Assembly (NCBI GenBank): GCA_029071325.1
Contig: JAIEAP010000043.1
Coordinates: 1-64,000 of the forward strand
DNA: 64,000 bases
Source of the DNA: Lachnospiraceae bacterium
GTDB lineage: Bacteria; Bacillota; Clostridia; Lachnospirales; Lachnospiraceae
Reading direction: 5' to 3'
Under the pieces are notes generated by a model that had not been told where the DNA came from, searched no databases, and saw only the letters and a program-made list of their open reading frames with translations. The translations under genes and the position numbers were made by a program. Shown piece by piece: positions 6,764 to 23,891 of this stretch; position 1 is the stretch's first letter; every line of letters starts with the position of its first letter.

Positions 6764-6777
6764 GCAGTCATACACCT

Positions 6778-7147
6778 TCCAGTTTCCGTATTATGCAGAA
6801 AACATACCGCAGAAAGCAGACGTGCATCATTGCTGCAAATAAAATCATCCCTTTCTCTTCGTTATTTGCCCGCAGACATCGGATAGCGGCTCGCCTTATG
6901 CTGAAATTTCAGTTGCCGCCGGTGTATCATTTGTGATGATTTGTGTCTTTTTAACGTTCGAACAATCCCCGGAGCATGTCCGTCTGCATGAGCACATGCA
7001 ATCTGCAGGGAGCGTGCTGCTCTTAATGGGCGTTCTGATGTGACGTGCAGTCTGCGGACAAATCCGAAAAGATACGCATGATTTTATTTGCTACAATGAT
7101 GCGCCCTCTTCTTATGGTATGTTATCTGCAAAATACGAAAACTCAAG
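6778..7147. mobile_element. MITE-like foldback element, copy 1 (internally shortened)
   Basis: Ends read AGTTTCCGTATTATGCAGA... and (reverse complement) AGTTTTCGTATTTTGCAGA...; ~70-85 bp imperfect TIRs; flanked by the 11-bp direct repeat GTCATACACCT (6767-6777 and 7148-7158); interior matches 18085-18360. Confidence 0.75.
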
Positions 7148-7164
7148 GTCATACACCTGAACTG

Positions 7165-16855: not shown

Positions 16856-18001
16856 TTACCTTTCCTTCTCCCGGCTGATTTGTCCCATTCCGTACAGCTT
16901 CTCTTCCTTATAAGAAGCAAAACGTCCCTCCTCCAGAGCATCCCGAATCTCCTGCATCATGGTATTATAAAAATACAGATTATGAAGCACACACAGTCTC
17001 ATGCCCAGCATTTCTTTTGCCTTTAAGAGATGGCGGATGTAAGCCCGGCTGTAGCGTGTGCATGCGGGACACCGGCAGCCTTCTTCAATCGGGCGCATAT
17101 CTTTTTCATATTTCCGGTTAAAAAGATTGATTTTTCCCTGATTCGTGTACAAATGTCCGTGCCGTCCATTTCGCGTCGGGTATACACAGTCGAAGAAATC
17201 CACACCCCGCTCCACACCTTCCAGAATATTGGCCGGTGTTCCCACTCCCATAAGGTACGTCGGCTTATCCTCCGGCAGGCAGGGAACGGTCTGATCCAGG
17301 ATATCATACATTTCTTCATGAGTCTCTCCCACTGCCAGCCCTCCGATGGCATAGCCGTCCAGTTCCAGTTCCCTGATACGCTTTGCATGATCCATACGGA
17401 TATCCCCGAAAATAGCTCCCTGATTGATACCGAACAAAAGCTGCTTCGGATTGATGGTATCCGGCTCACTGTTTAACTGCCGCATCTTCGCCTTACACCG
17501 CTCCAGCCACCGTGTGGTGCGCGCCACCGATGCCTCTACATAGGAGCGTTCCGCCACGCTACTGGGGCACTCGTCAAACGCCATGGCAATGGTGGAACCC
17601 AGATTCGACTGGATCTGCATACTCTCCTCCGGTCCCATAAATATTTTCGCGCCGTCCACATGAGAATGAAAATATACGCCCTCCTCTTTGATCTTGCGCA
17701 GCCCTGCCAGGGAAAACACCTGAAATCCGCCGGAATCCGTAAGGATAGGTCTGTCCCATACCATAAATCTGTGCAGTCCGCCTAACTCCCGAATCAGCCG
17801 GTCGCCGGGACGCACATGCAGATGATAGGTGTTGGACAGTTCTACCTGGCAGCCGATCTCCTTTAGGTCCTCCGTGGAGACGGCTCCCTTGATTGCCGCC
17901 ACCGTTCCCACATTCATAAATACAGGGGTTTGAATATCTCCATGGACCGTATGCAAAACTGCACGTTTTGCCCGTCCCTCTTTCTGAATTAACTCGTACA
18001 T
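16856..18001 (-). CDS. tgt: Queuine tRNA-ribosyltransferase
   Basis: DSGGFQVFSL, GGLAVGE, C-terminal Cys cluster CRCPAC. Confidence 0.96.
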   Translation of the reverse strand: MYELIQKEGRAKRAVLHTVHGDIQTPVFMNVGTVAAIKGAVSTEDLKEIGCQVELSNTYHLHVRPGDRLIRELGGLHRFMVWDRPILTDSGGFQVFSLAGLRKIKEEGVYFHSHVDGAKIFMGPEESMQIQSNLGSTIAMAFDECPSSVAERSYVEASVARTTRWLERCKAKMRQLNSEPDTINPKQLLFGINQGAIFGDIRMDHAKRIRELELDGYAIGGLAVGETHEEMYDILDQTVPCLPEDKPTYLMGVGTPANILEGVERGVDFFDCVYPTRNGRHGHLYTNQGKINLFNRKYEKDMRPIEEGCRCPACTRYSRAYIRHLLKAKEMLGMRLCVLHNLYFYNTMMQEIRDALEEGRFASYKEEKLYGMGQISREKER

Positions 18002-18072
18002 ATCTACTCCTTATAACGTATCATTCTTACGTCTTATCAGCATACCCTGTTTTGCGCCTTTTTGCAAGAGTA

Positions 18073-18692
18073 CTTGAGTTCTTAAGTTTCCGTATTTTGC
18101 AGACCAGATGCCAGGTAAAACAAACGCATCATTCCTATCATGAGATCTATGCACCGCTCTCCGTGGTTTACAGCCCTACGACAGATTGCTGCTCACCTTG
18201 TGCTGAAATTTCACCTGCCGCATGGTATATCATTTGTGATGATTCGTGTCTTTTTCACGTTCGAACAATTCCTTCCCGCTCTGTCCGTCTGCATGAGGAC
18301 ATGCAATCTGCAGGTTTTGTGCGTCTCTTAATGGGTGTTCTGATGTGACGTGCAGGCTGTGGACATTGTTTGAGCTCACAAACTAACAGTTGCTCTTATC
18401 TTGAAGCGAGTTATGGGAGCAGCCTGCTTATATCGACCACAGAAGAACGCCCATTTAGAGACGCTAAAAACCGAAGCCGCATGTGCGTGACAGACGGACA
18501 GAGCGGGAAGGATTGTCGAAGCATAAAAAAGACACAAAACTTATGATATACCAGCGGCAGCGAAATTTACACGCACCGGCTCAAGGCAATCTGCTGCAGG
18601 TCTGTAAACCACGGAGAAGGAGCATGTTTTTATGACAGGAATGATGAGACTGCTTTCTTATAGCATCCGGTCTGCAAAATACGGAAACTAGA
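18073..18692. mobile_element. MITE-like foldback element, copy 2 (near full-length palindrome)
   Basis: Left arm 18085-18360 is a diverged inverted repeat of right arm ~18415-18692; both ends carry AGTTTCCGTATTTTGCAGACC; flanked by gcaagaGta/gcaagaAta (18064-18072 and 18693-18701). Confidence 0.8.
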
Positions 18693-18803
18693 GCAAGAAT
18701 ATGATTGCCTAATACGATAAAATCTTCTATAATAGTTACCAGCATTTTATATGGATATGAAGATAATATCAGATTACATAACGGAAACGATAAAGGAGAC
18801 ATT

Positions 18804-22601: not shown

Positions 22602-23891
22602 CTATTCTAACTCGTCTCCCTCTTCTTCCTCTTCCTCTTCTTTTACATATTTCTTACGTGAGAATACCACCCATACCATCTGTACCAGAACAAAGAACAG
22701 CATCAGCGGCGTCCATTTATCCAGCAACGCAGTAGGCAGACTGATATCCTCTGTCAAAAGGAATGCGATCACGGAGATAATTGCTACCGGGAAGGAAAGA
22801 AGTCTTAACAATCCCTTCTTCTTTAATTTGAGAGGTTCTTCCTCTTCCTCACATGTCTCATCCTCCTGCACTTTCTGTTTCTTCTGCTCCTCGTTCTCTT
22901 CCTCCTCTTTTTCCTTCTTCGTAGTCACAAAGTATCCGATGAGCAACATCAGAGACAGAAAAACTGCCAGATTCATTAACATGAAGTTTACCAGCGCCCA
23001 GGCTGCTCCGTCATCCGCAAACAACGGTACCTCTGCGCCGCCGATCCTAACGGTCTGGGGTGTCGCCTCAGGCTCATCCTCTTCCACAATTGTGGGCGTA
23101 TCCTGCTGCTTATTTGGTCTCCTTGGCGTATTTGCCGGTGGAGTAGGATCGCTTGCCGGCACAGGAGTTTCCGGCATAATAATGCTCGGTGGAATGATCA
23201 CAATCGGCGGCGTCTGCGGCTCAACGGGAGGCTCCGGATCGTCAGGATCCTCAGGAGGTTCCGGATCGTCAGGATCCTCGGGTGGTTCCGGCTCATCGGG
23301 CTCCTCCGGTATAGGAGGCACAGGCTTCCGCTCTTCCACTTTGGCGCAGACTGTCACATCATACATCCACTCATTTCTTCCGGTCACCTCAATCAGATCA
23401 TAGGGGACGGAAAGCAGTACTGGAGATGCCTCATGACTTTCCGTGCCTTCTGCGATCAGAAGATAAAGCCCCTGTTTCAAGTCTGAAAATGTAACAATTC
23501 CCTTTGTATTGGTTTTTCCAGAAGAGATACTTGCGATGGATTCCTGCTCCACATGCTGAGCAAGCTTCTCCGCAATTGTCCCCCACTCAGTTGACGTATA
23601 GTTCTGTTCCGGTTTTATTTCTTTGACACAGCCGGCAAATACATCTTTCACGGAAAACTCAACTGGTTTTTTCTTCATATCCATATCTGCCACCAGATAC
23701 AGACTGACATTCATATCTGTCAGTGCCTGTTTTTGTGTTCCGTGCACATACTCGGCCTTTACGGAACCGCTTTCCGGCAATGTTCCTGTTGCCTGGCCTG
23801 CATATATCAGTATACTGCAGCAATGAAAACAAATGATCAAAAGCAGCAGTACGATATTTATTTTCTTACTCTTTTTTATGAATCTTCTCAT
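22602..23891 (-). CDS. Pilus-locus membrane protein: SpaA-like domain, Pro/Asp/Glu stalk, multiple C-terminal TMs
   Basis: Signal peptide-like N-terminus, PEPPEDPDD repeats, TM, highly acidic tail; no LPxTG; overlaps the sortase gene. Confidence 0.65.
   Translation of the reverse strand: MRRFIKKSKKINIVLLLLIICFHCCSILIYAGQATGTLPESGSVKAEYVHGTQKQALTDMNVSLYLVADMDMKKKPVEFSVKDVFAGCVKEIKPEQNYTSTEWGTIAEKLAQHVEQESIASISSGKTNTKGIVTFSDLKQGLYLLIAEGTESHEASPVLLSVPYDLIEVTGRNEWMYDVTVCAKVEERKPVPPIPEEPDEPEPPEDPDDPEPPEDPDDPEPPVEPQTPPIVIIPPSIIMPETPVPASDPTPPANTPRRPNKQQDTPTIVEEDEPEATPQTVRIGGAEVPLFADDGAAWALVNFMLMNLAVFLSLMLLIGYFVTTKKEKEEEENEEQKKQKVQEDETCEEEEEPLKLKKKGLLRLLSFPVAIISVIAFLLTEDISLPTALLDKWTPLMLFFVLVQMVWVVFSRKKYVKEEEEEEEGDELE
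23227..23307 (-). repeat. 27-bp coding tandem repeat x3 (PEPPEDPDD)
   Basis: Three successive 27-mers at 23227, 23254 and 23281. Confidence 0.85.

Follow-up and report, generated by a model that had tools for sequence, protein, structure and literature searches.

A near-palindromic element of about 620 bp lies between tgt and aroC in the Lachnospiraceae genome studied here (G000), within a 64,000-nucleotide stretch of contig JAIEAP010000043.1 that was analysed as a whole (the window). It belongs to a repeated family whose inner ~220 nt are conserved, covary in an RNA-like manner, and recur in three other genera. We consider it fairly probable that the family consists of foldback MITEs carrying an undescribed, patchily distributed structured RNA, which may be kept for partner binding. 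MITEs are usually regarded as empty shells for which the ends are sufficient. Here, the interior is conserved with RNA-like covariation, and its loop motifs stay constant over four genera while stems and ends change.

Structure of the element

The preliminary description had reported a ~620-bp non-coding near-palindrome flanked by a diverged 9-bp target-site duplication, and each of these features is present at this location (Table 1). The two arms are mutually complementary, with inverted pairs of up to 34 nt between them in the 18073–18692 element and complementarities of 96, 100, and 88% over segments I2 (27 nt), I4 (22 nt), and I1 (32 nt), respectively. Self-alignment of 18085–18689 with its own reverse complement gave 72% identity. 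When folded as RNA, the region 18060–18710 reached −331.9 kcal/mol, compared with −181.5 ± 7.8 kcal/mol for shuffled sequences (z = −19.4). The ORFs inside the element are short and random-looking and encode no plausible protein, so a protein-coding interior was rejected, and the same check found no transposase gene. A search of the element for promoters and terminators gave no convincing candidate. The inner left terminal repeat begins at 18081 as CTTAAGTTTCC, which refines the previously proposed start at 18073, while the right terminal repeat overlaps the duplication by a single shared base.

Table 1. Coordinates of the tgt–aroC element, its parts, and associated features in the window.
Feature	Positions	Strand	Basis
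Second, shorter copy (~363 bp), apical part largely deleted	6776–7147	+	Same window
Left target-site duplication, GCAAGAGTA	18064–18072		Sequence; 8/9 identical to 18693–18701
Additional partial terminus outside the inner terminal repeat, CTTGAGTT	18073–18080		Similarity to the ends of the other copies
Left terminal inverted repeat, CTTAAGTTTCCGTATTTTGCAGA	18081–18103	+	One mismatch against family consensus
Left foldback arm	18085–18360	+	Complementarity, fold, self-alignment
Apical domain, putative structured RNA of ~220 nt common to four genera (covariance model R1)	18278–18499	+	Covariation, wobble bias, cross-genus matches
Lower conserved internal-loop motif, 5′ strand, GGTTTTGTGCGTCTCTTA	18313–18330	+	
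Apical internal-loop motif, 5′ strand, UGUUUGA (family UGUYUGA)	18367–18373	+	
Apical internal-loop motif, 3′ strand, GAGUU	18408–18412	+	
Right foldback arm	18415–18689	+	Complementarity, fold, self-alignment
Lower conserved internal-loop motif, 3′ strand, TAGAGACGCTAAAAACCGAAG	18456–18476	+	
Right terminal inverted repeat, − strand reads CTCTAGTTTCCGTATTTTGCAGA	18671–18693	−	Two mismatches against family consensus
Right target-site duplication, GCAAGAATA	18693–18701		Sequence
Promoter-like site TTGCCT-17-TATAAT, directly outside the element toward aroC	18705–18733	+	Consensus scan only

Copies, termini, and target-site duplications

A blastn search of the 620-bp element against its own genome returned 104 matching pieces, which merged into at least 39 dispersed places and four contig-edge fragments; on this count, the mobility proposed earlier is not refuted. 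Four contigs (L047, L048, L054, and L055) terminate inside copies, so the genome probably contains more of them than this count. Near-full-length copies are 76–91% identical to the tgt–aroC copy, and copy lengths are about 605, 500, 405, 363, 250, and 217 bp, down to 77 bp. The shortest, at L101:7839–7915, is a minimal derivative forming a hairpin of scarcely more than two terminal repeats. The element was not found in phage, plasmid, or viral records; seven viral matches to a 17-mer lacked an R1 match. Likewise, blastn of the element in 60 relatives, including seven congeners, gave no matches.

The consensus terminus CTTGAGTTTCCGYATTTTGCAGA has 30 matches in the genome at three or fewer mismatches, and the reversed pattern has none. 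A Roseburia MAG (L041) and a Lachnospiraceae MAG (L043) also contain the terminal repeat exactly, but within coding DNA, and these matches were dismissed as chance. Around the shorter copy in the window, the 9-bp duplication is exact (GTCATACAC, 6767–6775 and 7148–7156). In the comparison of copies, the duplications are exact for L003 (ttgatatag) and L059 (gtcatacac) and degraded for many others. Across 20 copies, the 9-bp flanks agreed at 5.80 positions on average, compared with 4.53 for swapped flanks (permutation p = 0.0001). Because this test fixed the element ends, it underestimates the similarity for copies like L001, in which the extra CTTGAGTT lies at the left end.

A candidate mobilizer

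Other genomes of the order also contain the outer 12 bp of the element termini, CTTGAGTTTCCG. In G206, they enclose a 1572-bp unit with a single 417-aa ORF encoding a DDE_Tnp_1 protein (PF01609 passed). Its nearest relatives are IS4-type models, but its score of 52 bits lies below the cut-off of 115 for NF033592, and we therefore use only the label “IS4-like.” Proteins 76–81% identical to this transposase were found in G057, G035, and the congener G005, in the last case at a contig edge. The IS4-like termini at L123, L134, and L136 are identical to those of the element in the outer 12 bp and differ in the inner bases, and the unit in G035 bears an exact 10-bp duplication, tgtattttcc. The same 12 bp also enclose hairpins with other interiors, of 48 to 484 bp, in G206, G421, and G332. 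These include many ~195-bp MITEs of unrelated interior in G206 (L103–L107, L125, and L127), whose searched loci gave no R1 match, elements of 227 bp and 48 bp in G421, and a 484-bp foldback in G332.

The common termini with transposase-bearing units, together with a homologous transposase gene in a congener, indicate that the element is a MITE, probably moved in trans. In this reading, the tgt–aroC element is one copy of a non-autonomous foldback transposon, on which an IS4-like DDE transposase, known from other genomes with CTTGAGTTTCCG ends, would act, leaving duplications of ~9 bp. Searches of G000 revealed no such transposase, so mobilization of this kind may lie in the past. ISLre2 elements also generate 9-bp duplications and encode a UPF0236 transposase. 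They were rejected as the mobilizer, as PF06782 is absent from G000 and from the relatives bearing the terminal repeat, except for fragments in G421.

A conserved and covarying interior in four genera

When 11 full-length copies were aligned, the interior had a mean pairwise identity of 88.5%, compared with 65% for the outer stem and 57% for the terminal loop. In a second alignment of 25 copies (A2), 96.7% of cells pair in the consensus structure, compared with only 36–45% for slid structures. Two-sided compensatory changes occur at 53 of the 130 stem pairs, a count that ignores kinship among copies, and none of 500 shuffles attained any of the covariation measures. Columns 146/286, for example, hold UA in 14 copies, CG in five, GC in four, and AU and GU in one each, while columns 147/285 hold UA in 12, GC in 11, and CG in two. 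The structure of the interior is conserved, and its compensatory substitutions, the criterion for structured noncoding RNA, exceed those of the controls, with relatedness incompletely controlled.

R1, the covariance model built from the apical domain, was searched against 250 genomes of the family. Beyond G000, exactly three genomes were positive, each representing another genus and each with multiple copies: G204 with seven matches (best E-value 1e-28), G116 with seven (3e-18), and G152 with nine (6e-18). Full-length matches in these genomes have E-values of 1e-10 to 1e-28. No others were found in 395 further genomes of the order and 392 of the class, where five candidates were scored per genome and absences are soft.

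Stem sequences differ almost throughout between the genera, whereas the internal-loop motifs are retained. Near the apex, UGUYUGA/GAGUU is kept, with UGUKUGA in G152 and a shortened apex in G116. The lower motif, GUUUYGUG…UCUU opposite UAGA…GCUARAAAC, is retained in most sets. In the three other genera, two-sided changes were found at 56 of 70 pairs (0/500 shuffles) and the covariation score was 0.598, compared with 0.179 for shuffled alignments, although fitting this alignment to the R1 structure favours both results.

The element ends in these genera differ from CTTGAGTTTCC, being AATTCTGATTTG in G152, GGCTGCTGCATTTT-like in G204, and of two types in G116. A single mobilization mechanism therefore does not cover all genera. 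As homologous domains sit in differently ended elements, what is conserved appears to be the RNA, with an exchangeable transposon frame around it.

Strand, wobble pairs, and alternative explanations

Pairing that matters in RNA tolerates G-U on the RNA strand but not A-C. Because G-U counting in single-sequence folds was uninformative for strand in three of the four genera, an alignment-based count was used instead. The apical helices 8–9 hold 25 G-U and three A-C combinations, whereas the lower stem holds 32 and 36 (Fisher p = 9e-5, kinship ignored). Of 47 apical-domain sequences representing the four genera, 46 fold better as the + strand. For the outer arms, the − strand gives the more stable fold in nine of 11 copies. 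From the G-U excess and the + strand folding, the apical ~220 nt behave as RNA read in the tgt-to-aroC direction. We propose that the element body would encode a long, rod-shaped RNA read from the + strand of the window, of which the inner ~220 nt, with the two conserved internal-loop motifs, would form the undescribed structured RNA. Its retention through binding of a partner that aids the persistence or spread of the element is the least certain step of this scheme and is offered as a conjecture.

The complementarity could alternatively matter at the level of DNA, with a protein recognising a cruciform or single-strand hairpin and template switching keeping the arms complementary. The lower stem agrees with this, as its two-sided changes lack intermediates and show no wobble preference, and the arms there may indeed be kept complementary as DNA, with template switching within the palindrome as one possible process. 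At L060:1481–1891 (the same place as L025), a copy also lacks segments of the two arms that pair exactly with each other; this base-exact, symmetric deletion retained apex and base and suggests deletion while folded or arm-to-arm copying. As an account of the whole element, this explanation is nonetheless unlikely, given the wobble bias of the apical helices and the conserved internal loops, which arm-to-arm copying would erase.

Ordinary MITEs need only their ends. An inert palindromic MITE, with a functionless interior conserved through the recent spread of a few master copies, would fit the multiple copies, the lack of an ORF, and the survival of deletion derivatives down to the smallest size. 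Neutral decay would be uniform, however, yet the core is far more conserved than the outer stem, and in all four genera the stems covary and the loop motifs are kept although the stems have otherwise been rewritten. This explanation, already disfavoured, appears decidedly improbable. The earlier assignment to a MITE or foldback element stands on the repeated copies, common terminal repeats, ~9-bp duplications, and IS4-like termini, but its treatment as an inert MITE alone is not supported, given an interior that is conserved, covaries, and recurs in three other genera with different ends.

Copies occupy intergenic gaps. The gene tgt lies at 16856–18001 on the − strand, and the element separates it from the promoter-like site before aroC. 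A host regulatory role, in which copies between divergent promoters are retained for an insulating or tuning effect of the hairpin or its RNA on the neighbours, would accord with this placement, with upstream genes pointing away from the RNA 5′ end in 24 of 33 copies (p = 0.014), and with the 14 of 33 that sit between divergent ORFs, but it is most improbable, because the neighbouring genes vary among copies, seven congeners lack copies by blastn, gene avoidance alone accounts for intergenic placement, and the neighbour calls are ORF heuristics. Elsewhere in the window, a 429-aa ORF at 22602–23891 on the − strand resembles a surface protein: its start is signal-like, and it has hydrophobic segments as well as repeats that are acidic and rich in proline.

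Comparison with known RNAs and mobile elements

The apical domain had no match in Rfam at gathering or permissive thresholds, and literature searches on MITEs with structured RNA and on long-hairpin RNAs yielded no comparable description. Judged from its sequence, the domain is RNA-like, not described in Rfam, and common to four genera. If transcribed, it would constitute a new RNA family with an experimental handle in its motifs, strand, and dozens of copies.

In G152, the TwoAYGGAY RNA (RF01731, 99–121 bits) adjoins the domain on the opposite strand in seven of nine copies. TwoAYGGAY was listed in 2010 from human gut, gamma-Proteobacteria, and Clostridiales, and no function was assigned to it in that report (PMC2864571). 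Like the apical domain, it is a hairpin RNA, but it differs in model and sequence. Both RNAs lie in one repeated unit of ~715 bp with AATTCTGATTTG ends (L166, L169–L174, L182–L184, and L186), which gives TwoAYGGAY a genomic context. TwoAYGGAY was not found near the 20 scanned copies of G000 or at the scanned G116 and G204 loci. We tentatively suggest, with slightly less than even confidence, that the domain represents a new class of structured RNA, selfish or partner-binding, which spreads through Lachnospiraceae-type genomes in foldback elements whose transposon ends differ between genera, and that its association in one genus with the orphan TwoAYGGAY points to a larger group of RNAs carried by transposons.

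HEARO, IS605-type guide RNAs, and IStrons are structured noncoding RNAs carried by transposable elements. The principle is the same here, but the domain has no Rfam match to any of them, and its carrier has DDE-type terminal repeats and duplications, with no nuclease or intron seen. The IS4-like elements (PF01609) of G206, G057, and G035 share the outer 12 bp and have duplications of 9–10 bp, but they carry the 417-aa transposase and none has the RNA domain in the R1 search. In form, the element resembles bacterial MITEs and foldback elements, which are likewise short, non-coding, and multicopy, with terminal inverted repeats and duplications and no transposase gene; the element described here differs from them in its interior, a conserved, covarying, RNA-like domain common to four genera.
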